Part shown: in pieces, positions 45,855-61,907 of the stretch | Layout: the number at the start of each line of letters is the position of its first letter | How positions within the stretch are numbered: position 1 is the stretch's first letter | DNA from: Aurantiacibacter odishensis | GTDB lineage: Bacteria; Pseudomonadota; Alphaproteobacteria; Sphingomonadales; Sphingomonadaceae | DNA length: 64,000 nt | Reading direction: 5' to 3' | NCBI RefSeq assembly: GCF_003605195.1 | Contig: NZ_QYOS01000019.1 | Span: forward strand, 1-64,000 | The notes under the pieces: generated by a model | The model's input: the letters and a program-made list of their open reading frames with translations, nothing else | Databases searched by the model: none | Told to the model about the DNA's origin: nothing | Program-made: the position numbers and the translations under genes

Positions 45855-45940
45855 TGGTACGGGCGGCCGGACTCGAACCGGCACGTCACAAAGGACAGGG
45901 GATTTTAAGTCCCCGGCGTCTACCATTCCGCCACGCCCGC
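45855..45940 (-). tRNA. tRNA-Leu (anticodon UAA)
   Basis: An 86-base class II tRNA. On the minus strand it begins GCGGGCGTGGCGGAATGGT and ends with an encoded CCA. The anticodon arm GGGGA-CTTAAAA-TCCCC gives anticodon TAA. A long variable arm and the T arm GCCGG-TTCGAGT-CCGGC are visible. The first acceptor pair is G-U rather than G-C. The gene separates the acyltransferase from the catabolic-looking cluster that begins at 46050. Confidence 0.95.
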
Positions 45941-46016: not shown

Positions 46017-46030
46017 GTAACGTTCGTTAG
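46017..46030. promoter_or_regulatory. Palindromic operator-like site before the GMC oxidoreductase
   Basis: GTAACGTTCGTTAG contains perfect arms TAACG and CGTTA around TT, and ends 19 bases before the ATG at 46050. It matches 12 of 14 bases of the palindrome at 57957, upstream of the opposing operon. Short palindromes of this form are typical of TetR-type regulators, but no such gene is in the window. Confidence 0.6.
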
Positions 46031-46049
46031 GGAGAGGCGCCGAACGAAA

Positions 46050-47699
46050 ATGAGCGCAGTGGAATTCGACTTCATCGTCATCGGTGCAGGCTCTGCCGGT
46101 GCTGCCGTCGCCGCACGCCTGGGCGAAGACACCGCCTCCACCACCTGCGTGCTGGAAGCGGGCGGGCACGACAGCCACCCGTTCTTCCATGTGCCCAGCT
46201 TCGTTGCCGCCGCCATCGGGCGCAAGGACAGCAACTGGGGCTTTGCCACGGTGCCGCAGGCGGGCATGGCGGGCCGCCGGATCGGCGTGCCGCGCGGGCG
46301 CGTGCTGGGCGGTTCGGGCGCGATCAACGGCATGGTCTATTTCCGCGGCCACCCGACAGATTACGACGACTGGGCCGATGCCGGGTGCAAGGGCTGGTCC
46401 TACCGCGAGGTGCTGCCCTATTTCACCCGGACGGAGCGGAACGAGGATTATCCCGAAAGCGTCTTTCACGGCACCCAGGGGCCGATCAATGTCAAGCTGG
46501 TCGAGAATCCCAATGCGCTGAACTATGCCTTCATGGATGCGCTGGGCAGGCTGCAATTCCCGGCCTGTCCCGATTTCAACGGCCCGGACCCGGAAGGCTA
46601 CGGCAGGCGGCAGGGCCTGATCGGCAACGGCCAGCGACAAAGCACCTGGCAACAGATGCTGAAGCCAGCGCTGGCGCGCGGGAACATGCACGTGCAGACC
46701 GATGCCCGCGTCGCCCGGATCGTTGTGCAGGATGGCCGCGCCACGGGCGTCGAACTGGTTGATGGCCGCACGATCCGTGCGCGGCGCGAGATCGTGCTGA
46801 GCGCGGGCACGGTGCAGACACCGCAGATCATGATGCTTTCCGGCATCGGCCCAGCCGAGCATTTGCGCGCACACGACATCGAGGTTGTTCATGCGCTGGA
46901 GGGCGTAGGCGGCAACTACCAGGACCATGTCGCCAGCCCGATCCACATGGAAACAGAGGATACCACCAGCTACGGCATCAGCTGGAAGGTGCTCCCGCGC
47001 GACATCTATTACGGCATCGAATACCTGCTGAAACGCACCGGGCCGCTGGCGGGCAACGTGTTCGAAAGCGTGGCTTTCCTGCGCACCGATCCCTCGCTGG
47101 CCAAGCCGGACGTGCAGTTCGTGTTCCAGCCTGCAAAGCGGCTTACCAATTCGAAAATCCCGTTTCCGCTCGGCCACGGCTACGCCATCAGCCCGGTGGC
47201 GCTCTATCCCAAGAGCAGGGGCACGGTGCGGCTCGGCTTGCCCGATCCGGCGGCGGACCCGCTGATCGACCCGCACCTGCTGGAGCATCCTGACGACATC
47301 AAGCCGCTGATCCGCGCGCTGAAAATCTCGCGAGAGGCTTTCGCCAGCAAGCCGTTCGCCCGCTACAACGGCACCGAAGTCGCCCCCGGCCCCGATTGCC
47401 AGAGCGACGATGAATGGGACGCCTACATCCGCGAGACGGGCTACACCGTCCACCACCCCGTCGGCACCTGCCGCATGGGCGATCCCGCAGACGCCGAGAC
47501 CGTGGTCGACCCGCAATTGCGCGTGAAGGGTATCGCAGGGCTGCGCGTGGCCGATGCCAGCGTGATGCCCACGGTGATCGGCGGCAACACCAATGCGCCC
47601 TGCGTGATGATCGGCGAACGCTGCGCCGACTTCATCCTGGGCAAGCCGCCAATGGAACCGGCGCAGCTGCCGCCCGAAAGCGTCGCGCGCTACAGGTAG
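46050..47699 (+). CDS. GMC family FAD-dependent alcohol oxidoreductase
   Basis: A 549-residue flavoprotein of the glucose-methanol-choline family. FDFIVIGAGSAGAAVAARLG is at the N-terminus, then GGSGAINGMVYFRGHPTDYD (GMC signature 1), LSAGTVQTPQIMMLSGIGP (signature 2), and the C-terminal HHPVGTCRMG with GGNTNAPCVMIGER, carrying the catalytic His region. It should oxidise a primary or secondary alcohol. It is the first gene of the plus-strand arm, 19 bases past an operator-like palindrome, and is followed after 17 bases by a metallo-hydrolase. Confidence 0.92.
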   Translation: MSAVEFDFIVIGAGSAGAAVAARLGEDTASTTCVLEAGGHDSHPFFHVPSFVAAAIGRKDSNWGFATVPQAGMAGRRIGVPRGRVLGGSGAINGMVYFRGHPTDYDDWADAGCKGWSYREVLPYFTRTERNEDYPESVFHGTQGPINVKLVENPNALNYAFMDALGRLQFPACPDFNGPDPEGYGRRQGLIGNGQRQSTWQQMLKPALARGNMHVQTDARVARIVVQDGRATGVELVDGRTIRARREIVLSAGTVQTPQIMMLSGIGPAEHLRAHDIEVVHALEGVGGNYQDHVASPIHMETEDTTSYGISWKVLPRDIYYGIEYLLKRTGPLAGNVFESVAFLRTDPSLAKPDVQFVFQPAKRLTNSKIPFPLGHGYAISPVALYPKSRGTVRLGLPDPAADPLIDPHLLEHPDDIKPLIRALKISREAFASKPFARYNGTEVAPGPDCQSDDEWDAYIRETGYTVHHPVGTCRMGDPADAETVVDPQLRVKGIAGLRVADASVMPTVIGGNTNAPCVMIGERCADFILGKPPMEPAQLPPESVARYR

Positions 47700-47716
47700 G
47701 AGAGGGAGAGGGCCGC

Positions 47717-48619
47717 ATGGCCAAGGAGCATATCAAGACCTGGCAGGTGGGCGACGTAAAGATCAGCCGCATTGTCGAGATCTGGGATTTCCAGGACGAC
47801 ATCCACATGGCCATGCCCGACGCGACGCCCGAAGAGGTGAAAGCGATGGACTGGCTCCACCCCCATTATGCCACGCCCGAGGGGCAGATGCGGATGAACT
47901 TCCAGGGCATCGTGTTGCAAACGTCCGATCGCACCATCGTGGTGGATACCTGCATCGGCGCCGGACGGGAGCGGGAATACGAGGTGTTCACGGACCTGCC
48001 CGAGGGCTTCCTTGAGGACCTCTCCGCGCTCGGCATCACGCGAGAGGACGTGGACACCGTCTTCTGCACCCACCTGCATTTCGATCACGTAGGCTGGAAC
48101 ACCTACAAGGACCCTGAGACAGGCGAATACAGGCCGACTTTCCCCAACGCCCGCTACCTGTTCGGCAAGACCGAGTATGCGGCATGGCAGAACGACCTGC
48201 GGCACGACGATCACCATGATGACAAGCACATGGTGGAAAGCGTCGACCCCATCGTGGCCGCGGGGCTGGTGGATTTCATCGATGCTGACCACCAGATTGC
48301 GCCGGGTATCCATGCCGAACCCAGCCACGGCCACACGCCGGGCCACATCCACGTGGTGATCGAGAGCAAGGGAGAGCGCGCCGTCATCACAGGCGACCTG
48401 ATGCACCACCCGATGCAATGCGCGATGCCGCACCGCCATGCGACGTTCGACATGAACCGCGAGGCGGGCAGCGCAACGCGGCAGGGCTTCGTCGACAAGT
48501 ATCGCGACAGCGGCACGCTGGTGGTCGGCATGCATTTCTTCGAGCCGACCGCGGGCCACTTCGTGACGGGAAGCGACGGCGAGACCTGGTTCCGCGGGCT
48601 GGGCGTGGCCGACCGGTGA
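47717..48619 (+). CDS. MBL-fold metallo-hydrolase (first)
   Basis: A 300-residue metallo-beta-lactamase-fold protein. The metal motif HLHFDH begins at residue 119, followed by a His in EPSHGHTPGH and an Asp in ITGDLMHHP. Overall layout (KISRIVEIWDF start, NFQGIVLQTSDRTIVVDTCIG) resembles lactonase-like hydrolases such as AiiA relatives and quorum-quenching enzymes, but the substrate is not evident. GGAGAGGG overlaps the GMC gene stop and serves as its ribosome site, so the two are cotranscribed. Confidence 0.88.
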   Translation: MAKEHIKTWQVGDVKISRIVEIWDFQDDIHMAMPDATPEEVKAMDWLHPHYATPEGQMRMNFQGIVLQTSDRTIVVDTCIGAGREREYEVFTDLPEGFLEDLSALGITREDVDTVFCTHLHFDHVGWNTYKDPETGEYRPTFPNARYLFGKTEYAAWQNDLRHDDHHDDKHMVESVDPIVAAGLVDFIDADHQIAPGIHAEPSHGHTPGHIHVVIESKGERAVITGDLMHHPMQCAMPHRHATFDMNREAGSATRQGFVDKYRDSGTLVVGMHFFEPTAGHFVTGSDGETWFRGLGVADR

Positions 48620-48639
48620 CTCGATGCCTTTCCACAATA

Positions 48640-48657
48640 GCTCAAGCCAACTTGAGT
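48640..48657. promoter_or_regulatory. Inverted repeat resembling a SoxR-type box or a hairpin
   Basis: GCTCAAGCCAACTTGAGT has perfect arms CTCAAG and CTTGAG around CCAA. It shares 14 of 18 bases with the known SoxR operator of E. coli soxS. It ends six bases before the ATG at 48663. No fitting -35 or -10 boxes surround it, so it could instead be an RNA hairpin that affects translation of the next gene. Confidence 0.35.
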
Positions 48658-48662
48658 TAACC

Positions 48663-49487
48663 ATGGTGTCGCCCGCAGATCCTGCGCCCGTCACGGCCAT
48701 CCAGGCCATTCGTTACGCCCGGCACGAGCGCACCGCGCAGGCCAACTTTACCGCACCCGTTGACGATCACGACCTGCCGATGCCTCTCGATTACTACGTC
48801 TGGGCGATCCACCGGGACGACCATCCGCCCGTGATCGTGGATACGGGCTTCGGCGCGCAGGCCGCCGCGGCCCGCGGGCGCGAGATCACCCGCCCCATCC
48901 GCAAGGGATTGCGCGATGCGGGGATAGACCGGCTGGGCGTGGAGGACGTGATCCTCACACACCTGCATTACGATCATGCTGGCGGGCTCGACGATTTCCC
49001 CAACGCTCGTTTCCACGTGCAGGATGCCGAACTGGCCTGGGCCACCAGCCGCCATGTCTGCGACGCGACGGCGCGCGCGCCTTTCGATGGCGAGCCCGTC
49101 GCCGAACTGGTGCGCAGGCTCTATGCAGGCCGCGTAGTCTTTCACGACGGCGACGAGCAATTCGCCCCCGGCATCGCGCTATGCCTCGCGCACGGTCACA
49201 CGGCCGGTCTGCAACTGGTGGTGTGCGACACGGCGCGCGGGCCCGTGGTGCTCGCCAGCGATGCAGCACATCTTTACGCCAACATCACGCGCAAGGTCCC
49301 TTTCCCGATCTTCGTGGACGAGGAAGACTACCGTCGGGCACAGCTCCGCGCGCTGGACCTTGCGGGCGGCTCGCTTGATCACCTGATACCGGGGCACGAT
49401 CCGCTGGTGCTGGCGTGTTTCGAGACCGATAACGATATCGCGCGGGTGGACCTGCCCCCGCACACACCCGTTGCGGAGATGCTTTGA
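48663..49487 (+). CDS. MBL-fold metallo-hydrolase, N-acyl homoserine lactonase-like
   Basis: A 274-residue protein. The metal motif HLHYDHAGG starts at residue 100, with a later His in CLAHGHTAGLQ, Asp in LASDAAHLY and His in LIPGHDP. The spacing and the DYYVWAIHRDDHPPVIVDTGFG opening match the N-acyl homoserine lactonase group, which opens lactone rings. Within this cluster a lactone intermediate is a likely substrate. A start at 48624 is possible but would place the inverted repeat at 48640 inside the coding region; neither start has a good ribosome site. Confidence 0.85.
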   Translation: MVSPADPAPVTAIQAIRYARHERTAQANFTAPVDDHDLPMPLDYYVWAIHRDDHPPVIVDTGFGAQAAAARGREITRPIRKGLRDAGIDRLGVEDVILTHLHYDHAGGLDDFPNARFHVQDAELAWATSRHVCDATARAPFDGEPVAELVRRLYAGRVVFHDGDEQFAPGIALCLAHGHTAGLQLVVCDTARGPVVLASDAAHLYANITRKVPFPIFVDEEDYRRAQLRALDLAGGSLDHLIPGHDPLVLACFETDNDIARVDLPPHTPVAEML

Positions 49488-49505
49488 AATGATCGTCGGC
49501 TTGCC

Positions 49506-50387
49506 ATGATTCTTGGATTTCTGGGCCTTGGCCGCATGGGCGGCCCGATGGCGGAAAACCTTCTGCGCCATACCGGCCAGTTGCTCGTGCACGATGTCTC
49601 GGAAGAAGCCGTTGCCGCGCTGGTCGAAAAGGGGGCGGAAGCCGCGGGCAGCGCCGCCGCTCTGGGTGAACGGTGCGACGTCGTCTTCACCAGCCTGCCG
49701 ACCCCGCCCATCGTGCGCGAGGCGGTGCTGGGCGCGGATGGCATCACCGCAAATAAGGCTCCGCGCATCATCTGCGACCTTTCCACCAGTGGCCCGCAAC
49801 TCGCCGCCGAGCTGGCAGAGGCGCTGGAAGGCAGGACGGCCTGCCTCGATGCACCCGTTTCAGGCGGGATCGCCGGTGCCAGGGCGGGCACGATCTCGAT
49901 CATGGTCGGCGGGCCGGAAGCGGCTTTCGAGGAGGTGCGCCCCCTGCTCGAAGCCATGGGCAAGCCGACGCACATGGGCGAGACGCCCGGTGCCGGGCAG
50001 ACCATGAAGCTGGTCAACAACCTGCTCGGCGCGGTCGCCATCGGGGTGACGGCGGAAGGCATGGCTTTCGGCATCAAGCAGGGGCTGGACCCTGCGCGCA
50101 TGATCGAGGTGCTCAACCAGTCCACCGGCATCAATTCCGCCACCCGCGACAAGTGGCCGAAATCCGTCCTCCCGCGCACCTTCGACTTCGGCTTCGCCGC
50201 CGCGCTCAGCCTGAAAGACACGAAGCTGCTGCTGGACGAGGCGGACGCGGCCGAGGTGCCCCTGCCGCTGGGCCGGATCGTGGCTGACTACCTGGAGCGC
50301 ACGCTGGAACGCGAAGGCCCGCAGGCCGATTTCACCGCAATCGCCAAGGTTGTGGAGGAAGCCGCCGGGCTGGACCCGGAGCGCTGA
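49506..50387 (+). CDS. NAD(P)-dependent oxidoreductase, 3-hydroxyisobutyrate dehydrogenase-like
   Basis: A 293-residue beta-hydroxyacid dehydrogenase. The cofactor motif GFLGLGRMGGPMAENLLR is at the N-terminus, the substrate loop is DAPVSGGIAGARAGTISIMV, and the catalytic Lys lies in GAGQTMKLVNNLLGA. The family oxidises 3-hydroxyacids such as 3-hydroxyisobutyrate or tartronate semialdehyde; the exact substrate is open. It follows the lactonase-like gene by 18 bases in the plus-strand arm. Confidence 0.9.
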   Translation: MILGFLGLGRMGGPMAENLLRHTGQLLVHDVSEEAVAALVEKGAEAAGSAAALGERCDVVFTSLPTPPIVREAVLGADGITANKAPRIICDLSTSGPQLAAELAEALEGRTACLDAPVSGGIAGARAGTISIMVGGPEAAFEEVRPLLEAMGKPTHMGETPGAGQTMKLVNNLLGAVAIGVTAEGMAFGIKQGLDPARMIEVLNQSTGINSATRDKWPKSVLPRTFDFGFAAALSLKDTKLLLDEADAAEVPLPLGRIVADYLERTLEREGPQADFTAIAKVVEEAAGLDPER

Positions 50388-50435
50388 GCGTACGAATCAT
50401 GGTTACCGCGATTGCGAGTCGGCCGTTTCAGGCGC

Positions 50436-50831
50436 ATGTTCGGCCCCATGCTGAGTCTCGCCTTCCTTTTCGCCGCGCAATTCGCTGCCGATGCCCTGCC
50501 CACCGGCACCTACAGCGGCACCTGCCTCTACCCGGAAGCGGTGGAGGAACGCGCCGCGCCGGGTGAACTCATCACCTGCAACGAAGTGCGTATCAGCGGC
50601 GGGCAGATCAGCTTCGGCCAGCGCGGCTGGCAAACCCGCACGCGGTTCAACGGCACGTTCGAAGGCAGCCGCATGACGGTCGATTCCGTCACCCTGCCGA
50701 ACGGGCGCACCTACGAGGTGCGCGGCGTGTGCGAGGTCTATTTCGCGAACGAGGAGCTATCGGCCGTCGCCTGCACGGCCAGTTCGAACCGCGGCAGCAT
50801 GGCCGCCAACTTCGTCGTCTCGCGGCTTTAG
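50436..50831 (+). CDS. Small secreted protein of unknown function
   Basis: A protein of about 131 residues with an N-terminal signal peptide (LSLAFLFAAQFAADA) and a compact, beta-rich domain with four cysteines (GTCLYP, LITCNEV, GVCEVYF, VACTAS), probably two disulfides in the periplasm. I recognise no family. The start could be 50436 or 50448; a TTG start at 50412 is less likely. It closes the plus-strand arm and its stop overlaps that of the SDR on the other strand. Confidence 0.6.
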   Translation: MFGPMLSLAFLFAAQFAADALPTGTYSGTCLYPEAVEERAAPGELITCNEVRISGGQISFGQRGWQTRTRFNGTFEGSRMTVDSVTLPNGRTYEVRGVCEVYFANEELSAVACTASSNRGSMAANFVVSRL

Positions 50832-51616
50832 ATATCGTTGCGGATGGTTGCCAGCGCGCCGCCGTCGATTTCCCACTTCGCGCCGTTGACGTAGCTGGCC
50901 TCTTCCGAAAGCAGGAAGCTGACCACGTCGCCCACTTCGCGCGGCTGACCCACGCGGTTGAGCGTTGCCGTCTGGCCCAGCTTCTCCATCCCGGCTTCCA
51001 CGCTGTCGAACATCTGTTCCAGCATCCCGACCAGCAGCGGCGTCTCGATCACGCCGGGCATCACGCAGTTCACCCGCACGCCCTTCTGCGCCACTTCGCT
51101 CGCCGCCGTGCGCGTCAGTCCGACCGCGCCGTGCTTGGCGGCGTTGTAGGCGCAGGCGCCCGCGAGGCCGCGTTCCGAACCGATGGAGGCAGTGTTCACC
51201 ACCGCACCTTTCCCGGCGGCGACCATGTGCGGGATGACGAACCGCAGGCCCAGGAACATGCCGCGCAGGTTGACGCGCAGCACATGATCGAACTCGTCGA
51301 TCGGGTATTCGTGCGTGGGCGCGAGAGTGCCCTCGATGCCGGCGTTGTTGAAGAACCCGTCGATCCTGCCGAATGCGGTGATGGCTTCCTTGGCATAGCC
51401 CGCCACCGCGTCCTCCTCCGCGCAATCGGCCACGTGGGCTATCGCCGTGTGGCCTGCGTCACGCAGCTGTGCAGCGCGTTTCTCCAGCCGCTCCCCGTCG
51501 ATGTCGACCATCAGCAATTGCGCCCCTTCGCGGGCGAGGATCTCGCAGGTTGCAAAGCCGATGGCCCCTGCAGCCCCGGTAACGATGATCGCGTTTCCTT
51601 CGTGACGTTTCGTCAT
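50828..51616 (-). CDS. SDR family oxidoreductase (last gene of the minus-strand operon)
   Basis: A 262-residue classical short-chain dehydrogenase. TGAAGAIGFATCEILARE binds the cofactor, NNAGIEG and NTASIGSERG supply the Asn and Ser, and the active Tyr and Lys are in AYNAAKHG. The chain ends INGAKWEIDGG-like, as usual. It should interconvert a hydroxyl and a ketone. Its ATG at 51616 overlaps the stop of the 72-residue gene (ATGA), so translation is coupled. Confidence 0.9.
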   Translation of the reverse strand: MTKRHEGNAIIVTGAAGAIGFATCEILAREGAQLLMVDIDGERLEKRAAQLRDAGHTAIAHVADCAEEDAVAGYAKEAITAFGRIDGFFNNAGIEGTLAPTHEYPIDEFDHVLRVNLRGMFLGLRFVIPHMVAAGKGAVVNTASIGSERGLAGACAYNAAKHGAVGLTRTAASEVAQKGVRVNCVMPGVIETPLLVGMLEQMFDSVEAGMEKLGQTATLNRVGQPREVGDVVSFLLSEEASYVNGAKWEIDGGALATIRNDI

Positions 51617-51831
51617 TTGGCATCCTTCGATTTGCGGAACGGCATGGTGAGAAGGAACAGCGCCAGCTTCGGCGTCATCAGCTTGAGGAAGTTCTTCGCC
51701 TCCTCCGGCGTCAGTGTCGCGGTCATCGGCATGGTGCCGTAGACCTTGCCTTTCAGGACGAGGTCGTTGCCCTTCCGCTCGATCTTGCTGACCTGCATCA
51801 GCTCGCTCTTGTCGGCAGCGTGTATCTTCAT
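51613..51831 (-). CDS. 72-residue protein of unknown function
   Basis: A small basic protein beginning MKIHAADKSELMQVSKIER, then a beta-rich stretch (DLVLKGKVYGTMPMTATL) and a helix with a hydrophobic face (EEAKNFLKLMTPKLALFLL). I do not recognise the family. It overlaps the flavoprotein upstream and the SDR downstream by four bases each, which strongly supports it as a real gene of the operon. It could be a chaperone-like or membrane-associated partner of one of them. Confidence 0.72.
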   Translation of the reverse strand: MKIHAADKSELMQVSKIERKGNDLVLKGKVYGTMPMTATLTPEEAKNFLKLMTPKLALFLLTMPFRKSKDAK

Positions 51832-53405
51832 GACACGCGCACCTCGTCGAAATCAATGCCGAGATCTTCGGCGGCGACCATTGCGGTCGCGCGCCCCGCG
51901 CCGAACACGCCGCCGCCCGGATGTTGGAACGGCCCGACGAGGTAGAGCCTGTCGACCCCCGGCACGCGGTACTGGCCAAGGTCCGGCGTCGGGCGGTGCG
52001 AACCGGACTGGTAGGTGGTGGTGGCGATGCCGTGCAGGTCGCCGCGGTAGAAGCTGGGGCTCGTGCGCTCCATGTCCACCGGACTGTCGCAGTGGTAGTC
52101 CAGCACCACGTCGGGCACGTTGGCGATGTATTTGCCCATCTGCGCGATCATCTTTTCGGCGAATTCGCCCTTCGCCTCGTCCCAGCTCCGCCCGTCCTGC
52201 CGGGTGTAGGGCACGTAGTCCCACGCGTGGAAGATGGACTTGCCTTCGGGGCAGCGTGTGGGATCGTGCTGCGGCAACTGCCCCACGCCCACCAGCGGGG
52301 TGGGGCTCATGTTGCCATAGCGCAATTCGTCGAAGGCGCGGCGCATGTCCTCGTAACTGGCGGGCATCAGTTCGTACATCACGGCGGACAGCGGTTCGCC
52401 ATCGTGACGCTTCGCCCGGAATTCGAGCGGCGCATCGAGCGCGGCGTGGACGGTGAAGCAGGCGGCATCGGTGATGTGCGTGCGTTTCGCGCGGTGGCCC
52501 ACGTCTGCGGGCAGCGCGTCGACCATGTCGGGCAGCACATGGGGGTGCAGCGCACCGATGATGCCGTCGCCAGCCGATAGCCGCTCGCCATCGTCCAGCA
52601 CCACGCCCGTCGCGCGGCCGCCTTCGGTGGTGACTTCGCGCACGCTGGCAGAAGCGCGCACGCTGCCGCCGTGGTCCTCGATGCAGGCGATCAGCGCATT
52701 GGTGAGACTGCCCGAACCGCCCACCGGCACGCCGAAGCCGTATTTCTCGAGGAAGCCGAGGAACACGTAAGCGCCGATCCCGGTCGCCTTCTCATCCGGA
52801 GAGACAAGGTTTTCGCCCGCCACCCGGCCAAAGTGCGCGCGCACTTTCTCGTGCTCGAACAGTTCCTCCATCAGGTCGAAAGTGGAGACCTGCGTGGTGC
52901 GCCACATCTCGCGTCCCTCGACCGACTGGTCCATCATCGCCGCCTGCGCGCCCTGCGGCATGGGCGGCGAATATAGCCCCGCCTGGATCATCGGCAGCCA
53001 CTGCGCGGCCTGCTGACTCATCTTCAGGAACGTCTCGGCGTCTTTCTGCGAAAAGCGGGCAATGGCCTCGGCGCTCTTTGCCGGATCGCGGTGGAGCGGG
53101 AGGGTGGTGCCGTCTTCCCACACGCTCATCATCGGCACGTCGGGGAAGACGTATTTGAGGCCGTATTTCGATTTCAGGCCAAGGTCGTCACTCGCCAGCA
53201 GCGGATTGCCCTGGATGAAGATGTGGCTCATCGAATGCTGGTCATGCATGAAACCGGGGCGCGTCAATTCCCGGCTGACTACGCCGCCGCCGTGCCATTC
53301 GTTGCGCTCCAGCACGAGCACGCGCTTGCCCGCAACGGCAAGGTATGCGCCCGCGACCAGCCCGTTGTGGCCCGATCCGATGATGATGATGTCTGCGTCT
53401 GCCAT
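51828..53405 (-). CDS. Phytoene desaturase-like FAD-dependent oxidoreductase
   Basis: A 525-residue flavoprotein of the CrtI/retinol saturase-like superfamily. IIIIGSGHNGLVAGAYLA binds FAD, followed by VLERNEWHGGGVVSREL; the C-terminal FAD segment is LYLVGPFQHPGGGVFGAGRA. Members desaturate or isomerise isoprenoid chains, but many homologues outside carotenoid clusters act on unknown lipids. No phytoene synthase is nearby, so carotenoid synthesis is unlikely; a role on a terpenoid or polyketide ring is my inference. Confidence 0.85.
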   Translation of the reverse strand: MADADIIIIGSGHNGLVAGAYLAVAGKRVLVLERNEWHGGGVVSRELTRPGFMHDQHSMSHIFIQGNPLLASDDLGLKSKYGLKYVFPDVPMMSVWEDGTTLPLHRDPAKSAEAIARFSQKDAETFLKMSQQAAQWLPMIQAGLYSPPMPQGAQAAMMDQSVEGREMWRTTQVSTFDLMEELFEHEKVRAHFGRVAGENLVSPDEKATGIGAYVFLGFLEKYGFGVPVGGSGSLTNALIACIEDHGGSVRASASVREVTTEGGRATGVVLDDGERLSAGDGIIGALHPHVLPDMVDALPADVGHRAKRTHITDAACFTVHAALDAPLEFRAKRHDGEPLSAVMYELMPASYEDMRRAFDELRYGNMSPTPLVGVGQLPQHDPTRCPEGKSIFHAWDYVPYTRQDGRSWDEAKGEFAEKMIAQMGKYIANVPDVVLDYHCDSPVDMERTSPSFYRGDLHGIATTTYQSGSHRPTPDLGQYRVPGVDRLYLVGPFQHPGGGVFGAGRATAMVAAEDLGIDFDEVRVS

Positions 53406-53415
53406 TCGTTATCCT

Positions 53416-54561: not shown

Positions 54562-54572
54562 GCCAAACTCCG

Positions 54573-55331
54573 TCAGCCCGCCGCGATGATGCCGCCATCC
54601 ACGGCCAGCATCGCGCCATTGATGAAACTCGCCTCGTCGCTCAGCAGGAAGGCGGCGGCCTGCGCCACGTCCTCCACCGTGCCGTTGCGTCGGAGCGGGA
54701 TGTTCTTCGCCCTTTGCTCGTATTGCTCCGGCGTCACGAAGCCTTCGGTTGCGGGCGTTGGCACGGAGCCGGGAGCAATCGCGTTCACGCGGATCCCGCG
54801 CGGGCCAAGCTCGCCCGCCAGCACCTTCGTCAGCCCGGCGATGCCGGCCTTGATGGTGGTGTAGGCCCCGGTGTTGGGCCTGCCGCGATAGGCGACGGGG
54901 CTGGAATAATTCAGGATATTGCCGGGCGCGTCCTCGTCCCGCGAGGCAAGGAAAGCCTGCACGCCCCAGAACACGCTTTTCAGGCCCGCCGACAGCATCG
55001 TGTCGAGCGTTTCTTCGGTCACAGCCTCGATCGGTTCGTAAACCAGCACGCTGGCATTGTTGATGACGGCGCGAAGTGGGCCTGCATCGCTGGCGAAGTC
55101 CTGCGCGGCTTCCATGAAGGCCGCGCGGCTGCCGCAATCCGCACCATAGCTGTAGGCGCACCCGCCGGCATCGTTGATGGCCTCTGCCACCTCCATCGCG
55201 GACTGGCCCTTGATATCGACGATCCCGATGATCGCGCCTTCGCTGGCGAGGTGTTTCGCGATACCTTCGCCCAGCCCGCGCCCGGCGCCCGAAATCAGGA
55301 TCGGTTGTTTTTCGAACCGGCCCGCCATCAT
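54573..55331 (-). CDS. SDR family oxidoreductase (second of two in the operon)
   Basis: A 252-residue short-chain dehydrogenase. ISGAGRGLGEGIAKHLASEG binds the cofactor, NNASVLVYEP replaces the usual NNAG, the Ser lies in LNYSSPVAYRG and the Tyr-Lys pair in AYTTIKAG. The chain ends NGAMLAVDGG. It overlaps the NTF2-like gene upstream, where two adjacent ATGs sit on that gene's stop. It probably handles a different intermediate from the SDR at 50828. Confidence 0.88.
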   Translation of the reverse strand: MMAGRFEKQPILISGAGRGLGEGIAKHLASEGAIIGIVDIKGQSAMEVAEAINDAGGCAYSYGADCGSRAAFMEAAQDFASDAGPLRAVINNASVLVYEPIEAVTEETLDTMLSAGLKSVFWGVQAFLASRDEDAPGNILNYSSPVAYRGRPNTGAYTTIKAGIAGLTKVLAGELGPRGIRVNAIAPGSVPTPATEGFVTPEQYEQRAKNIPLRRNGTVEDVAQAAAFLLSDEASFINGAMLAVDGGIIAAG

Positions 55332-55744
55332 TCCATCCCGAACAGCTTGGCGGTGTAGTGGCTGTCCATGTATTCGCGCATGGCGTCGATCTTGCCGTTC
55401 GAGACCTCGAACACCCAGCAATAGTCGTTGTCGTAAACCAGGCCGTCCATCGTCTTGCCGGTGGAGTTGGATTCGACGCAGACCCACGGGCCGACGGAAA
55501 ACATGTTCTGCACGTGGACCTTGGGATCGCCGGGTTCGAACATGCCGCGCACGGGGGCGAGGAACTTGTCGATGATGTCCATCCCCACGTGCTTTCCTGC
55601 CCCTGCAATGTCCTTCACCTTCGGCTCCCACACCGAGTGTTCGTGGTAGAACTTACGCAGCTTCTCTAGGTCGCCCGAGGACAGCACCTCGAAGAAATCC
55701 AGCACCAGCTGTTCGTTTTCGTTCTTTGCCTCGACTGCCATCAT
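55328..55744 (-). CDS. NTF2-like/SnoaL-type protein
   Basis: A 138-residue protein with the cone-shaped NTF2 fold pattern: a helix (ENEQLVLDFFEVLSSGDLEKL), RKFYHEHSVWEP, and a beta-sheet part ending EVSNGKIDAMREYMDSHY. Such proteins act as small isomerases, dehydratases or cyclases, for example SnoaL or ketosteroid isomerase. Catalytic residues cannot be assigned. GGAGAGG sits right before the double ATG. One of two NTF2-fold genes side by side. Confidence 0.8.
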   Translation of the reverse strand: MMAVEAKNENEQLVLDFFEVLSSGDLEKLRKFYHEHSVWEPKVKDIAGAGKHVGMDIIDKFLAPVRGMFEPGDPKVHVQNMFSVGPWVCVESNSTGKTMDGLVYDNDYCWVFEVSNGKIDAMREYMDSHYTAKLFGME

Positions 55745-55760
55745 CCTCTCCGTTCTTGTC

Positions 55761-56249
55761 TCAGGCCAGCCCGCGCGCTTCGTCGCTGGGTGGCGGAATC
55801 TTCGGCATCGCCCCGCCCATATGCAGGGCCACCATTCCGGCTCGCTTGGCGAAGCGCCACACGCCGCCCGGCTCGGATTGGTCGAGCACGTATTCATCCT
55901 CGAACCCGCCGACGTAGAGCGCGCCCGCTTCCTGCGGCGGCTCGGTGCTGGCGTGGCTGGAGAGCATGGTGAGATAGTTCGTCCCGCGCGCCCGCGTCTC
56001 GGTAATGGCTTCCACCAGCACGTTGGTGACCACGTGCCGCACAAGGATCGGCGGGCGATTGCGGAACACGCGTTCCACCGCCGCGCGCCCGTAGAACGGG
56101 TAGTCGGGCTGGAATGGCCGCGAGAACTCGCAATCGGTAGTAAACAACTGCGCCAGCGCCTCGGCATCGCCGTTGTCCGCATACCTGGCGAACAGCAGCG
56201 GCAGCTTGCCGCAGGCCAGTTCTATGGCGAGGCGGTGGCCGTCATCCAT
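55761..56249 (-). CDS. SnoaL-like/NTF2-fold protein
   Basis: A 162-residue protein starting MDDGHRLAIELACGKLPLL, with the NTF2-fold hallmark LFARYADNGDAEALAQLFTTDCEF and a later beta-sheet region. It resembles SnoaL_4-type proteins related to the small subunits of aromatic dioxygenases, but without an alpha-subunit gene nearby it is more likely an isomerase or dehydratase. The start at 56249 overlaps the CMD gene stop by eight bases; a longer start at 56264 is possible. Confidence 0.78.
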   Translation of the reverse strand: MDDGHRLAIELACGKLPLLFARYADNGDAEALAQLFTTDCEFSRPFQPDYPFYGRAAVERVFRNRPPILVRHVVTNVLVEAITETRARGTNYLTMLSSHASTEPPQEAGALYVGGFEDEYVLDQSEPGGVWRFAKRAGMVALHMGGAMPKIPPPSDEARGLA

Positions 56250-56667
56250 CGGGATTCTCGGCATTGTCGTTCTCGGCGTCGATCTCAGCCAGAGCCTCGT
56301 TGACGATGCGGAAGCTGTCGACCGCCGCGGGAATGCCGGCGTAGATGCCGACCTGCAGCAGCACCTCGCGGATTTCCTCGCGCGAGAGGCCGTTGTTCAG
56401 CGCGCCGCGGGTGTGGACCTTCAACTCATGCTTGCGGCCCAGCACGGAAATCATGGCGAGGTTGATCAGGCTGCGGTCACGGCGGGAGAGTTCTTCCTCG
56501 CGCCCCCAGGTCCAGCCCCAGCAATAGGTGGCGACCAGTTCCTGCAGCGGGTCGTTGAAGGGGTTGGGATTGGCCGTCGCCTTGTCGACATAGGCATCGC
56601 CCAGCACCTCGCGGCGGATTTTCATGCCCCGCTCGAACAAATTCTGGTCGAAGAGATCCTTGTCCAT
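56242..56667 (-). CDS. Carboxymuconolactone decarboxylase family protein
   Basis: A 141-residue protein with the CMD pattern GREEELSRRDRSLINLAMISVLG, then HTRGALNNGLSREEIREVLLQVGIYAGIPAAVD, very close to the PcaC subgroup (4-carboxymuconolactone decarboxylase). No other protocatechuate-pathway gene is present, so it may act on another lactone or beta-keto acid. It lacks the CxxC of AhpD-type peroxidases in this fold. Second gene of the operon that starts at 57909. Confidence 0.87.
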   Translation of the reverse strand: MDKDLFDQNLFERGMKIRREVLGDAYVDKATANPNPFNDPLQELVATYCWGWTWGREEELSRRDRSLINLAMISVLGRKHELKVHTRGALNNGLSREEIREVLLQVGIYAGIPAAVDSFRIVNEALAEIDAENDNAENPDG

Positions 56668-56679
56668 GGTGTGTCCTTT

Positions 56680-57909
56680 TCAGAGAGCCGCGTAGACCGC
56701 GTCGATCAGCCGCCGCGCACGCGGGCCATTGTCGCCCACGGCGTGCATCTGGTTGCAGCAGTAGGAAAAGCCGAGCTTCGCATCGGGATCGCCGAAACCG
56801 ATCGAGCCGCCGAGGCCGTGATGGCCGAAACTGCGCATGTTCGGCCCCATGTAGACTGCCTCGGGCGTGTTCAGCAGGACGCCGTTCGCCTGGTGGTAGG
56901 GCCGATCCTGTAGCAGTTCGATCTGGTTGTGCTGCTCCGTAATCATCGCTTCGAGCTGCGCGTCGGACAGCAGGTCGACGCCGTCCACCTCTCCGGTAGC
57001 CGCGCCGTAGATGCGCGCCACGCCGCGCGCGTTGCCGTGGCCGGAGCCGCTGGCGATCTCCACCTCGCGCCAGCGGGCGGAGTTCATGGTGTCGTACCAC
57101 GGCTCCTTCGCGTTCTGCAGGAAAGCGAAGCTGCGCAGCACCGCGCCATCCTGCCAGCCTTCGGGCGTGGTCGGCTTCTCCGGCACCTGCTGGTCCTTCG
57201 CCGCGAACAGGCGCGCCTTGGTGTTGGGCAAAACCTCGGCGACATGGCTCTGCTCTTCGGCGTCCATGCCGCCGATGTAATATTCCGCGCCCAGCGGCTC
57301 TGTCACGTTTTTGCGCAGGAACGGGCCTACGGTCATGCCCGTCACGCGGCGCATGATTTCGCCCAGCAGGAAGCCCTGATTGTGCACGTGGTATGCGGCG
57401 ACGGTGCCCGGCTCCCACAGCGGCTCCTGCACTTCCAGCGCGCGGATGTAGTTCTCGTAATCGAGCAGGCCGCCGGGATACATAACATCGTTGGTGAGCA
57501 CCGGAATGGCGGCGGTGTGATCGAGGATCATCCGAACGGTGATCCGCTCTTTCCCGCCATGCGCGAATTCCGGCCAGTAGGTCGCCACCGACTCGTCGAA
57601 GTCAACCAGCCCCCGGTCCGCGAGCATGTTGAACGCGATGCCGGTCACGCCCTTGGCAACGCTCATCATGCAGACGGTGGAGTGCTTGTCCCACTCGGCG
57701 GAATGGTCGGCCTGCGCAAAGCCGCCCCACAGGTCCACCACGGTCTGCCCGTCGACGACCACGGAGCAGCCCGCCCCCAGTTCCTCTTCCTCGCGGAAAT
57801 TGGTGGCAAAGGCCTCTGCCACCCCCTCGAACCCTTCGGCCACATGGCCGTGCAGCGGAAACGTGCTCCCGCGCGCTTGGATATCCTGCGCGATTTCGAC
57901 GTGCGCCAA
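56680..57909 (-). CDS. Class-C beta-lactamase-fold serine hydrolase (first gene of operon)
   Basis: A 409-residue hydrolase with S-x-x-K as Ser83-Lys86 in MSVAKGVTG, a Tyr-containing AYHVHNQGFLLGE and the C-terminal HHGLGGSIGFGDP in place of the KTG box. No signal peptide. The pattern fits family VIII carboxylesterases (EstB/LovD-like) that hydrolyse or transfer acyl groups. It opens the nine-gene minus-strand operon, 47 bases downstream of the palindrome at 57957. Confidence 0.88.
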   Translation of the reverse strand: MAHVEIAQDIQARGSTFPLHGHVAEGFEGVAEAFATNFREEEELGAGCSVVVDGQTVVDLWGGFAQADHSAEWDKHSTVCMMSVAKGVTGIAFNMLADRGLVDFDESVATYWPEFAHGGKERITVRMILDHTAAIPVLTNDVMYPGGLLDYENYIRALEVQEPLWEPGTVAAYHVHNQGFLLGEIMRRVTGMTVGPFLRKNVTEPLGAEYYIGGMDAEEQSHVAEVLPNTKARLFAAKDQQVPEKPTTPEGWQDGAVLRSFAFLQNAKEPWYDTMNSARWREVEIASGSGHGNARGVARIYGAATGEVDGVDLLSDAQLEAMITEQHNQIELLQDRPYHQANGVLLNTPEAVYMGPNMRSFGHHGLGGSIGFGDPDAKLGFSYCCNQMHAVGDNGPRARRLIDAVYAAL

Positions 57910-57956
57910 TCATGCTCTCCCCTTGTGAAGTCGCCTGGTTTGTTCTCCGGTCGACT

Positions 57957-57970
57957 CTAACGATCGTTAG
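57957..57970. promoter_or_regulatory. Perfect palindrome upstream of the minus-strand operon
   Basis: CTAACGATCGTTAG is a perfect 14-base palindrome lying 47 bases before the start codon at 57909. Its TAACG-NN-CGTTA core recurs at 46017 before the GMC gene. Its position between the operon start and the end of the CmcJ/NvfI-like gene fits a repressor operator, probably of TetR type. Confidence 0.65.
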
Positions 57971-58000
57971 CGTAGGCGAGGCTTGTGCCCCGCATCAAGC

Positions 58001-58813
58001 TCAATCGAAGTAGGCGATGGTGCGCAGCTCGATGGATTCGCGCGGCGCGGCGTCGCTCGGCACTTCCGTCGGGTTGAAGCTGGTGTGCGCGGTGAACTGC
58101 ACGGCATCTTCGTTGGTATCGAACAGCTTGAACACCATCATTTCTTCGGGACGCTGGTAGGGCAGCCAGCACCAGCGATGGACGGGATTGTAAGCGAGGT
58201 TGAAGCCCCACAGCGAGAAATCCACGCCGCCAAGGCCGCCCACGATCTCGCTGGGGAACAGGTCTTCGCGCTTCACCGTGCTGGCATCGCACAGGGCAAA
58301 AGGGGCGCTCTCGACCGTGGAGATGGGTCGCCACAGGTTGAACAGCATGTGCCGTTTTGCCAGCCGCTCCTCGGCCTCCTCGGCGGGCAGGATCAGGCGG
58401 GTGTAGTCGCCCACTGTCTTCGCCCCGTAATCGACATGTGCGCCGTTGGCGGGCTGGTTGTGCCCGTGGGTGCCGGTGGCACTGGTGCGCCGGATCGCGC
58501 CGAAACTGACGACTTTCGATGCGCCTGTCAGCCGCTGGACCGTGTCCTCGCAATAGCGGCAGTAGGCTTCGAGCTGATCTGGATCGGCATAGTCCGAAAC
58601 GGGCGATGGCTCGTCCAGAACGACAAAGCCGTTGCGGTCAAACGCCAGCCGGTCCTTCTCGCCGCGGATATCGTGGATGGTGACGAGGTGGTCCTCCCCC
58701 GGCCAGTAGCTGCGGTCGCGGTCGCCCGCGTAGAAGGTCGCCTTCTCCCCTCGCACGACATAGCGGATTTCCGCCTCCGCATCGCGGGTGATCGTATCGC
58801 TGTCGTTTCGCAT
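58001..58813 (-). CDS. CmcJ/NvfI family oxidoreductase
   Basis: A 270-residue protein of the CmcJ/NvfI/AsaB group, best known from cephamycin and fungal natural-product pathways. I see THGHNQPANGAHVDYGA (His and Asp of a probable iron site), LFNLWRPISTVESAPFALCD and the C-terminal SIELRTIAYFD, which are the family's hallmarks. Some members hydroxylate or desaturate with iron and 2-oxoglutarate; others are cofactor-free isomerases. Separated from the operon at 57909 by the palindrome, it likely has its own promoter in the region at 58814. Confidence 0.83.
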   Translation of the reverse strand: MRNDSDTITRDAEAEIRYVVRGEKATFYAGDRDRSYWPGEDHLVTIHDIRGEKDRLAFDRNGFVVLDEPSPVSDYADPDQLEAYCRYCEDTVQRLTGASKVVSFGAIRRTSATGTHGHNQPANGAHVDYGAKTVGDYTRLILPAEEAEERLAKRHMLFNLWRPISTVESAPFALCDASTVKREDLFPSEIVGGLGGVDFSLWGFNLAYNPVHRWCWLPYQRPEEMMVFKLFDTNEDAVQFTAHTSFNPTEVPSDAAPRESIELRTIAYFD

Positions 58814-59181
58814 CGGTCGTGCCTAACCTCTCGCTCTCCGCGCATGCCATATCGCCAAGCGCCGGTGTGCCGCAAGTCGCGCAGGTGCCAATTCCCCCTC
58901 GAAGCTTGCCATTCGTTTCAAGCAGATCGGTCAATGCTGTTGCTTGATTACGACAATCACGCCCAGCTTCTTGGATTCGTGCGCAACGCGCTTGATTGTA
59001 ACAGTCGTGATTGTAAAAAGGCGACTGGAGAGGAAATTGGCAGAAACGCGCGTCTGGCAGACAGCGTAACTGTACTTGCACCCTCACCAGACTTCGAAGC
59101 GACCCGCCAATAATGGGCGCGCGAAATACATAGCATTTGCGCACCGTCTTAACGGGCGGCGCGCCATAGGGAGGATGCCTG
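58814..59181. promoter_or_regulatory. Divergent intergenic region (368 bases) with repeated half-sites
   Basis: No gene seen. It holds the divergent promoters of the CmcJ/NvfI-like gene and the TonB-dependent receptor. GATTGTAA occurs at 58994-59001 and 59009-59016 (15-base period), and the inverted half-site ACAATCACG at 58953-58961 pairs with CGTGATTGT at 59006-59014. This clustering suggests binding sites of a regulator. AGGGAGGA precedes the receptor start. Confidence 0.5.
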
Positions 59182-61800
59182 ATGAAATTCAAGAAGCTCA
59201 GCGTAGCGTCGTCGCTGGCCATTGCCGTGTGCATGGCCGCGCCAGCGCTCGCCCAGGACGAAACGGATGCGCAGGAAGCGTCCGAGCGTCGCGACAACCA
59301 GACCAACGTCATCGTCGTGACCGCGCAGTTCCGCGAACAGAACCTGCAGGAAACCCCGATCGCGATCACCGCGGTGAACGCGGAAATGCTGGCCGCCCGC
59401 GGCCAGACGGACATCTCCCAGGTCGCCGCCCAGGCCCCGAACGTAACCCTGCGCCCGCAGCCGCAAAACGGCGGCTCGGGCCTCATCGCCTTCATCCGCG
59501 GCGTCGGCCAGACGGACTTCAACTACGCGCTCGACCCGGCAGTGGGTGTCTACGTGGACGATGTCTATATACCCACCCTGTCCAGCTCGCTGCTTGAACT
59601 GGTCGACCTCGACCGGGTGGAAATCCTTCGCGGTCCGCAAGGCACGCTCGCCGGCAAGAACTCGCTGGGCGGTGCCATCAAGCTGTTCTCCGCCCGTCCG
59701 ACCGGCGACGGCTCGGGCTCGCTGCGCGCCGAGTACGGTTCCTACAACAGCGTGTCGATCCGCGGCATGGCCGACATCGGGCTGACCGACACCCTGGCCA
59801 TGCGTGTGTCCGGCATGGGCCGCACGCGCGACGGCTATGTCGACATCGTCGACTATTCGCTGACCCATCCGAACTCCAACGTGCCGTCGAACAACGCGCG
59901 CGGCGCACAGACCAGCTACGAGACGATGGGCGGCCAGAGCGTCGTCGCCGGTCGTGTCGCGCTGGAGTGGGAGCCCAACGATCGCCTCAACATCTATGTC
60001 GCGGGCGATTTTAACCGCGAGGATTCGGACGCCATCCCGACCGTGCTGATCGCGGCCGGCGCTCCGGTCGGCAATGCCGCCAACTTCGATCCGGATTCGA
60101 CCAACCCGGCAACGGATGCGAATGGCAACGCCTGGCTTCCAGGCCTGAACGGTCAGCCGGTAACGGTGGATTGCCGCTTCGTGCCCGCCGGGCAGTACAG
60201 CTGCGACAGCGCGAACCTTTCCAGCCTCGGCTATGATCCGCGCTATGTCAGCTATTCCAACTTCGCGGACACCAAGGTTCCGACAGGACAGGCTCCGTAC
60301 AAGCCCTACTTCGCTCTTCCGATTACGGAATTCGAAGGCTGGGGCGTGATGTCGAACGTCACCTACGACTTCACCGATGCGCTGCAACTGGTGGCCATCG
60401 GCTCTTACCGTACCTACACCTCGCGCTGGGGACAGGACCAGGATGCGACCCCGGTTCCGATCGCGCAGCTGGACAACCAGCTCGACCACGAGGCGTGGAG
60501 CGCGGAAGTTCGCCTGAACTTCGAATTCGCGGACGAACTGGTGCAGGGTACAGTCGGCGGCTTCTACCTCGATCAGGATGGTGAATACACCGCCCGCGTC
60601 GATCTGAACTACGCCGGTATCGACTTCATCCACGGCCCGGACACCACGCCGAGCACGACGAAGGCCGCGTTCGGCACGGTAACGATCACGCCGAGCGAAG
60701 TGTTCAGCATCACGGGCGGCATCCGCTATACGAAGGACGAGAAGCTCTACACCTACTTCCGTTCGAATCCCGATGGCACCGTGCCGTTCCGCGAGAACGG
60801 TTCGCTGCTCGGGCCGGAACTCGAAGTTGCGCCCGGCGTCTTTATCCCGACGCCTCCTGTCTGCGAGTTCTTCCTCGGCGCGCCGACAGCCGGCCCGACC
60901 GGCATCGGCAATACGCCCAACTGCCTGCTCACCGGCTTGTTCGGGATTTCGGACGGCTTCGAGGGCGATCGCTGGGACTGGCGCATCGTGGGTAACCTCA
61001 ACGTCACCGAAGACGTGCTGCTCTACGCCTCGGTTTCGACCGGGTTCAAGGGCGGCGGCGTGAACCCGCGTCCGTTCTTCGGCCCCTCCGCCGGTGACTG
61101 TAACGCGCCTGACTACGTCGCTCCGGCGCCGTGTAACCAGCTGCGTTCCTTCGATCCGGAGGAAATCACCACCTACGAAATAGGCTTCAAGGTCGATGCT
61201 CTAGACCGTGCCCTGCGCCTGAACGGTGCAGCGTTCTACAACGACTACAAGAACATCATCCTGACACTGCCGGCCTGCCCCAGCGTGCCCTGCCTGCAGC
61301 CGCGCAACGTAGGCGAGGCCAAGGTGAAGGGCTTCGAACTGGAAGTGACGGCCTATCCGGCCGATGGCTTCTCGCTCGACGGTGCACTAAGCTACATCGA
61401 CTTCAACTACGATGATACCTCGGTCGCCGCTGCAGGACTGACGGGTGACGAAATCACCCCCTATACGCCGGAATGGACCTGGAGCTTCGGCGCCCAGTAC
61501 GACCACGAACTGCAGAGCGGCGCGAACATTTCCGCCCGTTTCGACGGCAGCTACCAGTCGACCATCTACACCGACGTGTTCAACACTGTGTGGTCGGAAA
61601 TCGAAGGCTACTTCATCGGCGGTGCCCGCGTCGCCTTCACCGATCCGGCCGATCAGTGGACGCTGGCGCTGCGCGTCGACAACATCTTCGACGAATACTA
61701 CTTCCAGTCGGTCAGCGATGTGACCACTTCGCTGGGCGTGGTGACGGGTGCCCCCGGTCTGCCGCGCACCTGGTCGCTGTCGGTCGAACGCCGCTTCTGA
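59182..61800 (+). CDS. TonB-dependent outer-membrane receptor
   Basis: An 872-residue receptor that imports a substrate across the outer membrane with energy from TonB. The signal peptide ends near residue 24 (AAPALA-Q). A TonB-box-like NVIVVTAQFREQNLQETPIAI is followed by the plug domain (FIRGVGQTDFNYALDPAVG, VEILRGPQGTLAGKNSLGGA) and a barrel ending in WSLSVERRF. Sphingomonads use such receptors for aromatic, terpenoid and polysaccharide substrates, and this one caps the catabolic cluster. It has its own terminator at 61809. Confidence 0.94.
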   Translation: MKFKKLSVASSLAIAVCMAAPALAQDETDAQEASERRDNQTNVIVVTAQFREQNLQETPIAITAVNAEMLAARGQTDISQVAAQAPNVTLRPQPQNGGSGLIAFIRGVGQTDFNYALDPAVGVYVDDVYIPTLSSSLLELVDLDRVEILRGPQGTLAGKNSLGGAIKLFSARPTGDGSGSLRAEYGSYNSVSIRGMADIGLTDTLAMRVSGMGRTRDGYVDIVDYSLTHPNSNVPSNNARGAQTSYETMGGQSVVAGRVALEWEPNDRLNIYVAGDFNREDSDAIPTVLIAAGAPVGNAANFDPDSTNPATDANGNAWLPGLNGQPVTVDCRFVPAGQYSCDSANLSSLGYDPRYVSYSNFADTKVPTGQAPYKPYFALPITEFEGWGVMSNVTYDFTDALQLVAIGSYRTYTSRWGQDQDATPVPIAQLDNQLDHEAWSAEVRLNFEFADELVQGTVGGFYLDQDGEYTARVDLNYAGIDFIHGPDTTPSTTKAAFGTVTITPSEVFSITGGIRYTKDEKLYTYFRSNPDGTVPFRENGSLLGPELEVAPGVFIPTPPVCEFFLGAPTAGPTGIGNTPNCLLTGLFGISDGFEGDRWDWRIVGNLNVTEDVLLYASVSTGFKGGGVNPRPFFGPSAGDCNAPDYVAPAPCNQLRSFDPEEITTYEIGFKVDALDRALRLNGAAFYNDYKNIILTLPACPSVPCLQPRNVGEAKVKGFELEVTAYPADGFSLDGALSYIDFNYDDTSVAAAGLTGDEITPYTPEWTWSFGAQYDHELQSGANISARFDGSYQSTIYTDVFNTVWSEIEGYFIGGARVAFTDPADQWTLALRVDNIFDEYYFQSVSDVTTSLGVVTGAPGLPRTWSLSVERRF

Positions 61801-61859: not shown

Positions 61860-61907
61860 CAAACAAGAAGGGCGCGGACTTTACGAAGTCCGCGCCCTTC
61901 TTGTTTG
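61860..61907. terminator. Long perfect hairpin, bidirectional terminator
   Basis: A 22-base-pair stem with a TACG loop at 61882-61885. The arms run 61860-61881 and 61886-61907, contain AAGGGCGCGGACTT, and have flanking A- and T-rich ends. It lies between the convergent receptor and ihfB genes and can stop transcription in both directions. The length of perfect pairing is unusual. Confidence 0.8.

Follow-up and report, generated by a model that had tools for sequence, protein, structure and literature searches.

A palindrome-marked catabolic cluster of Aurantiacibacter odishensis and its possible link to plant-phenolic breakdown

Which compound does a bacterium take up and dismantle with sixteen adjacent genes of mixed catabolic families, and how are these genes switched? 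This is the question raised by positions 46050 to 61800 of a 64,000-nucleotide (nt) stretch of Aurantiacibacter odishensis DNA, the whole of which we call the window. The original prediction, drawn from the letters of the window, described two co-regulated arms that import and degrade an ester- or lactone-bearing natural product. The explanation that we favor, and to which we give an even chance of being right, is that the cluster imports and stepwise degrades an oxygenated phenylpropanoid-type plant compound, and that one regulator, binding the palindrome TAACGNNCGTTA, would control it jointly with a lignan/lignin-dimer locus at another place in the chromosome.

The palindrome, the loci it marks and the candidate regulators

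The cluster is built of two convergent arms, of which the plus-strand one is headed by the gene of a GMC oxidoreductase and the minus-strand one by that of the esterase EstA. The palindrome TAACGNNCGTTA stands before both, at 46018-46029 and 57958-57969. These two exact copies compare with a mean of 0.00 in 100 shuffles of the 64 kb, and no further copy is found in the window, even when one mismatch is allowed. Relatives were collected with the CrtI-like flavoprotein of the cluster as a marker: across 249 genomes of the family, 31 match at E up to 1e-60, and 20, the source genome included, at 70% identity or more. A contig scan gave 45 loci, onto which the 16 cluster proteins were mapped. The set used below holds 41 non-redundant alphaproteobacterial loci besides the window (786,541 nt in total); loci with identical CrtI were merged, and those with CrtI below 68% identity were left out. 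Every one of the 26 exact palindromes in these loci is found upstream of GMC or EstA, at a distance of 120 nt at most. An exact site precedes EstA in 19 of the 38 loci that are testable there, and a site with one mismatch does so in four more. The flanks, which are outside the search pattern, are partly symmetric: among 87 distinct sites (from all stretches, merged if identical over 32 nt on either strand; 94 without strand merging), 63 pair Y at -2 with R at 15, and 37 pair A at -3 with T at 16. All these site counts come from related genomes and are hence non-independent. Judged by its position, the palindrome would be an operator-like site kept at the arm promoters.

The genome contains six copies, five of them intergenic. 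The site of L007 is inside the start of a longer open reading frame, for which we take the downstream ATG as the probable start, and that of L010 overlaps the final bases of a flavin monooxygenase gene. The four sites outside the cluster all adjoin catabolic genes. The one on contig C11 has an O-methyltransferase gene on one side and a CmcJ-family gene on the other, and a TonB gene is close by. Contig C18 has two, one between a methionine-synthase-like gene and a set of SnoaL, SDR and DUF3237 genes, and the other between a FAD_binding_4/cytochrome c pair and the gene of a 293-residue protein that fits no clear family. The last, at position 9991 of contig C20 (L127), is before tandem cupin-like genes and behind a flavin monooxygenase gene. 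The palindrome is also seen beside cupin genes in two other genomes (L220, L222).

The C18 locus (L125, L126; about 78-115 kb) is the best defined of these places. It encodes a DesA syringate O-demethylase (831 bits, cut-off 800), which also passes the LigM model (601 against a cut-off of 580), and a lignostilbene dioxygenase NOV2 (854 bits, cut-off 650). For the handling of the C1 unit, there are genes of FolD-like, formyl-transferase and MTHFR type. Its DUF3237 protein, its FAD_binding_4 and cytochrome c pair and its lignostilbene dioxygenase belong to the families of PinX, PinWV and PinU, respectively, which is a family likeness only (PMC12607616). By its gene content, the DesA/NOV2/DUF3237 locus appears to resemble the pinoresinol pathway. 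When stretches of relatives around a C18-type locus or its IclR gene were examined, 13 of 15 were found to hold the locus (L225 and L233 do not), and 12 of these 13 (all except L217) have the site beside the SnoaL/DUF3237 operon, with a GMC gene following it in ten. The C18-type locus with its site recurs in other genera, and the plasmids of Novosphingobium RL4 and Sphingobium V4 carry three sites each among DesA/DUF3237-type genes.

The number of sites also varies sharply within the genus: 15 of 25 genomes have 4 to 10 sites, nine have none and one has a single one, while the control pattern (the palindrome read backwards) occurs in 3 to 30 copies. The CrtI marker, an IclR gene and a MarR-like gene are present in exactly those 15 genomes and absent from the other ten, at limits of E up to 1e-100, 1e-30 and 1e-20, respectively. 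In 16 genomes from other families of the same order, there are 0 to 5 sites and none of the three genes at those limits. Among 17 further genomes, 16 of which carry the cluster, the IclR gene is found in 17 and the MarR-like gene in 15. The regulator would most likely be the MarR-like protein encoded in the C18 locus (95840-96367), with the IclR protein of the same locus (85108-85884) as the alternative; we prefer the former because, on the RL4 and V4 plasmids, its gene lies closer than that of the IclR protein to the site at the DUF3237 operon. TetR-type control, the first guess from the palindrome, was set aside: there is no regulator among the 16 genes, and the two tested regulators that track the sites are the MarR-like and IclR proteins.

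The cluster and its predicted enzymes

The features of the region are listed below, with gene starts re-called at start codons.

46018-46029, no strand: palindrome TAACGTTCGTTA, 20 nt before the GMC start codon
46050-47699, plus: GMC oxidoreductase, 549 residues, choline-dehydrogenase-like (Pfam GMC_oxred_N and _C; HHPVGT and GNTNAP motifs)
47717-48619, plus: MBL1, MBL-fold hydrolase (Pfam; HLHFDH)
48663-49487, plus: MBL2, MBL-fold hydrolase, AidB/AiiA-lactonase-like, below equivalog cut-offs (Pfam, NCBIfam; HLHYDH)
49506-50387, plus: HIBDH, 3-hydroxyacid dehydrogenase of the HIBADH/tartronate semialdehyde reductase type, below equivalog cut-offs (Pfam, NCBIfam)
50412-50831, plus: 139-residue protein, putatively secreted according to the original prediction, no Pfam family
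50828-51616, minus: SDRb, short-chain dehydrogenase (Pfam)
51613-51831, minus: p72, 72 residues, partner gene of the CrtI-like flavoprotein, no Pfam family
51828-53405, minus: CrtI/CrtO-like FAD oxidoreductase, 525 residues (Pfam, NCBIfam)
53416-54561, minus: EstB, serine beta-lactamase-fold esterase (Pfam; SVTK motif)
54573-55331, minus: SDRa, short-chain dehydrogenase (Pfam)
55328-55744, minus: SnoaL-like protein (Pfam; model nearest limonene-1,2-epoxide hydrolase)
55761-56264, minus: NTF2/SnoaL_4 protein (Pfam)
56242-56667, minus: CMD-family protein (Pfam)
56680-57909, minus: EstA, family VIII-like esterase, TTG start (Pfam Beta-lactamase; SVAK motif)
57958-57969, no strand: palindrome TAACGATCGTTA, 48 nt before the EstA start codon
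58001-58813, minus: CmcJ/NvfI-family oxidoreductase (NCBIfam NF041278)
59182-61800, plus: TonB-dependent receptor, 872 residues (Pfam)
61860-61907, no strand: perfect 22-nt inverted repeat with a 4-nt loop, 3' of the TonB gene, possible terminator

The 16 genes (46050-61800) thus comprise the plus arm (46050-50831), the minus arm (from 57909 down to 50828), the CmcJ gene and the TonB receptor gene. The left limit of 46017 first given for the cluster is at the palindrome, and the GMC start codon is at 46050. Within the arms, the gaps between genes range from -23 to +43 nt, with 4-nt overlaps for SDRb/p72, p72/CrtI and SDRa/SnoaL, and the arms themselves meet tail to tail with a 4-nt overlap. 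The gene families, order, overlaps and shared palindrome of the original prediction are all borne out, with Pfam matches for 13 of the 16 proteins, an NCBIfam match to CmcJ/NvfI for the protein of 58001-58813 (NF041278, 236 bits, above the cut-off of 80) and the two exact sites. Directly to the left of the cluster there is a tRNA-Leu(taa) gene (45855-45940), whose 3' end is directed away from it. At about 375-381 kb of contig C18 (L002-L006), several stretches resemble the beginning of the plus arm at 69-75% DNA identity and are probably GMC paralogs.

The ester and lactone chemistry that was foreseen fits two serine esterases and two lactonase-type MBL proteins. EstA combines an S-x-x-K motif (SVAK), the beta-lactamase fold and closeness to known carboxylesterases, which fits a family VIII-like esterase, and its best PDB matches are the carboxylesterase 5gmx and the fenoxaprop-ethyl hydrolase 7y3z. 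Of the catalytic Y-x-N/S motif, EstA has one instance (YEN) of uncertain placement and EstB no literal match. The nearest PDB entries to MBL1 are a reconstructed dihydrocoumarin lactonase and a methyl parathion hydrolase; as N-acyl homoserine lactonases, MBL1 and MBL2 score below the equivalog cut-offs (best 74 and 68 bits against 425 and 360). The CrtI-like protein also falls short of the carotenoid enzymes, with 214 bits for CrtO against a cut-off of 1000 and 88 for crtI_fam against 238. In a fold search with the SnoaL model, limonene-1,2-epoxide hydrolases rank first, and LdpA is absent, among the best 50 of 519 matches (E up to 0.001), which neither supports nor rejects an LdpA-type lyase. 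The 139-residue protein and p72 have no Pfam match, and relatives of the former occur in only part of the related loci.

A possible course of degradation can be drawn from these families. The TonB protein would import the compound, EstA, EstB, MBL1 and MBL2 would open ester or lactone bonds, and the GMC enzyme and the SDRs would oxidize alcohols. The CrtI-like protein with p72 may change a C=C bond, SnoaL, NTF2 and CMD may carry out lyase, isomerase or decarboxylase steps, and HIBDH could handle a small 3-hydroxyacid.

The association of CrtI with p72 extends far beyond this cluster. A p72 gene is found within 700 nt downstream of 60 of 68 distinct CrtI-like relatives at 35% identity or more, and of none of four at 30-35% (alignments shorter than 300 residues and duplicates were left out). 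The pair spans alpha-, beta- and gammaproteobacterial loci (51613-53405 in the window; L098-L117), including those of Novosphingobium aromaticivorans pNL2, K84 pAtK84c, Burkholderia anthina and Diaphorobacter, and near these four, there are genes for VOC-family or annotated extradiol dioxygenases or for ring-hydroxylating dioxygenases. Twelve positions of p72 are invariant over 20 aligned members; the protein's structure model is poor, with a predicted local distance difference test (pLDDT) of 56. Judged by this distribution, the CrtI-like flavoprotein and p72 make up an uncharacterised pair that is widespread.

Relatives of the cluster and comparison with known systems

The records of the 41 loci belong to Aurantiacibacter, Alteraurantiacibacter, Altererythrobacter, Croceibacterium, Erythrobacter and other alphaproteobacterial metagenome-assembled genomes (MAGs). 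A search for the same gene order in other genomes, which had been suggested as a check, finds the convergent arrangement, with the CrtI arm opposite two or more of GMC, MBL1, MBL2 and HIBDH, in 32 of them. Both arms are on one strand in L064 and L065, and the remaining seven loci, of which five are on stretches shorter than 13 kb, show a single plus-arm gene or none. A relative of the TonB receptor adjoins the cluster in part of the loci, many of which end before its position. The view of a conserved catabolic cluster with a likely importer is supported. In addition, 28 of the 41 loci contain a cytochrome P450 whose nearest PDB relatives are CYP199 enzymes, and many have an MFS transporter and, between CmcJ and EstA, a FAD monooxygenase of the MhpA type. 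An AraC gene lies inside the cluster in nine loci (L050, L061, L064, L082, L084, L090-L092, L103).

Among Gammaproteobacteria, a Nevskiaceae MAG (L100) and a bacterium from a bog (L105) have the set in rearranged form. Plasmid pEP1 of Sphingobium sp. EP60837 bears relatives of nine cluster genes (GMC, MBL1, MBL2, SDRa, SnoaL, CMD, EstB, CrtI and p72) at 46-66% identity. In view of these rearranged sets and of pEP1, the cluster looks like a unit that was apparently moved between lineages. The pEP1 region differs in that its genes are scattered over about 46 kb with genes for a CoA ligase, an aminomethyltransferase-family protein and ring cleavage, and the neighbors of the relatives include folD, a catechol-type dioxygenase and maleylacetate reductase. 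Other replicons were rejected as carriers: a Variovorax SRS16 plasmid (EstB, HIBDH, CMD, MBL2) and a Rhodococcus plasmid (EstB, SDR) have part of the set and not the whole, and the RL4 and V4 plasmids have only distant CrtI relatives (48% and 45%) in the stretches examined.

Among described systems, the pin pathway of Novosphingobium rhizosphaerae LY (PMC12607616) is likewise a sphingomonad route for plant-phenolic dimers with a GMC oxidoreductase, but PinX, PinWV and PinU are absent from the cluster, which has esterase, lactonase, CrtI/p72, CMD and SnoaL genes instead. The 16 genes include neither a lignostilbene dioxygenase of the PinU/LsdD type nor a DUF3237 decarboxylase (PinX/PhcF/PhcG), whereas a lignostilbene dioxygenase and DUF3237 are present at C18; a GMC enzyme is present and may or may not correspond to the side-chain alcohol oxidases PinY or PhcC. 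The beta-5 (DCA) pathways phc and pcfL-lsdD (PMC11323797 and PMC12997858) have in common with the cluster a biochemical logic of GMC side-chain oxidation, NTF2-family lyases and lignostilbene dioxygenases, the last of which the cluster lacks, and the NTF2/SnoaL likeness is one of biochemical logic only. The likeness of the relatives' P450 to CYP199 is one of nearness among solved structures, which makes it a candidate member of that family, and the best match to it in the window genome has 37% identity, which is not an ortholog. The anaerobic phloroglucinol pathway (PMC10470551, parts covered) was dropped, as these show no family link. The contention that the cluster is unlike systems of known substrate agrees with searches of the open-licence PubMed Central (PMC) literature, which found no paper that assigns it a substrate. 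The covered parts of PMC12607616, PMC12997858, PMC11323797 and PMC10470551 contain no description of it, and the one paper found to name Sphingobium EP60837 is on carotenoids.

The substrate and the competing explanations

The substrate would most likely be a methoxylated aromatic with an ester or lactone, such as a lignan, a lignin-derived dimer or a derivative of these; we infer this class from the co-marked locus, the CYP199-like P450 of the relatives and the pEP1 neighbors. In particular, since the site is found at the DesA/NOV2 locus, methoxylated plant phenolics are indicated rather than the terpenoids, polyketides or mycotoxins that had originally been put forward as candidates.

Several observations weigh against this explanation. 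On the side of the chemistry, none of the enzymes of the cluster is aromatic-specific, the P450 and FAD monooxygenase of the relatives are absent from it (best own-genome matches of 37% and 45% identity), and what we take to be the carboxylate-binding positions of CYP199A4 are not all conserved in the relatives' P450. As to the site, the control pattern is present in eight genome copies, more than the six of the palindrome, and four of the eight are intergenic, so that an intergenic position by itself says little. Before GMC, the exact site is present in just 7 of the 27 loci testable there, with five more at one mismatch. Where both arms are testable (26 loci), both have the exact site in five, EstA alone in ten, GMC alone in one and neither in ten, so the function can do without this control. 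Concerning the regulators, one genome (G213) has the IclR gene without the cluster or the MarR-like gene, another (G076) has the cluster without a MarR-like match, and the split of 15 and 10 genomes may follow one clade. The control shared by the two arms appears to be lineage-specific. One or both arm promoters can be seen in seven of the nine AraC loci. No exact site is present in these seven, a sign that the regulator may have been swapped, and the site is also missing from further loci that have no AraC gene. The proposed co-regulation of the arms accordingly stands in part, as an operator-like site seems to be kept at arm promoters, but both arms are marked in few relatives; likewise, the palindrome does mark both arms, but it is not confined to them, as it marks four more catabolic places, including the DesA/NOV2 locus.

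We consider it rather unlikely that a non-aromatic natural product, such as a terpenoid or polyketide lactone, is degraded, with the regulator acting as a general "plant debris" switch that holds little information on the substrate. An alicyclic lactone would suit the esterases, lactonases, SDRs, CrtI-like flavoprotein and limonene-epoxide-hydrolase-like SnoaL, no ring-cleavage dioxygenase family is found by Pfam among the 16 proteins, and the marked sites include the cupin genes behind a flavin monooxygenase gene. However, the CYP199-like P450 of 28 loci and the MhpA-type hydroxylase of many, the aromatic-catabolism genes adjoining the pEP1 relative and the DesA/NOV2 nature of the best-defined co-marked locus all speak for an aromatic compound.

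It is less probable still that the cluster, instead of being a substrate pathway of its own, serves as a lower pathway in which fragments from the DesA/NOV2 locus are processed. The common site, the co-occurrence with genes of the DesA/NOV2 locus in the genus, and the CMD and lactonase families, which recall the processing of ring-fission products, would agree with such a role, but gammaproteobacterial loci have their own P450, pEP1 has its own TonB receptors and the AraC-bearing loci lack the site, all of which suits an independent pathway. Moreover, other routes are known for the products vanillate and syringate (PMC12997858). Finally, we find it very improbable that chance or phylogeny left the palindrome behind and that the arms lack co-regulation, for even though half of the control copies are intergenic and 20 of 27 testable relatives miss the exact GMC-arm site, all 26 sites of the relatives are at the two arm promoters, the genus counts fall at 0-1 or 4-10 against 3-30 for the control, and the flanks are partly symmetric.

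With the preferred explanation, an orphan cluster becomes testable: it has a conserved operator-like site and two candidate regulators, its likely substrates narrow to lignans, lignin dimers and methoxylated phenylpropanoids, and its carriers include named Aurantiacibacter and Croceibacterium isolates, among them the culturable Aurantiacibacter rhizosphaerae GH3-10 (L094), which has both sites. A wider proposal, which we hold tentatively and with more doubt than confidence, is that an undescribed pathway for methoxylated phenylpropanoids with a lactone or ester is tied to a lignan/lignin-dimer pathway through a new sphingomonad regulon, which has the extended operator AYNNTAACGNNCGTTANNRT. The undescribed pathway would use a new two-component CrtI-p72 flavoenzyme spread in catabolic clusters of Alpha-, Beta- and Gammaproteobacteria. 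CrtI-p72 would stand for a new type of flavoprotein partner, and the pair occurs in the well-studied N. aromaticivorans, on pNL2. For the Erythrobacter group, these findings suggest that its bacteria take part in the turnover of plant phenolics.

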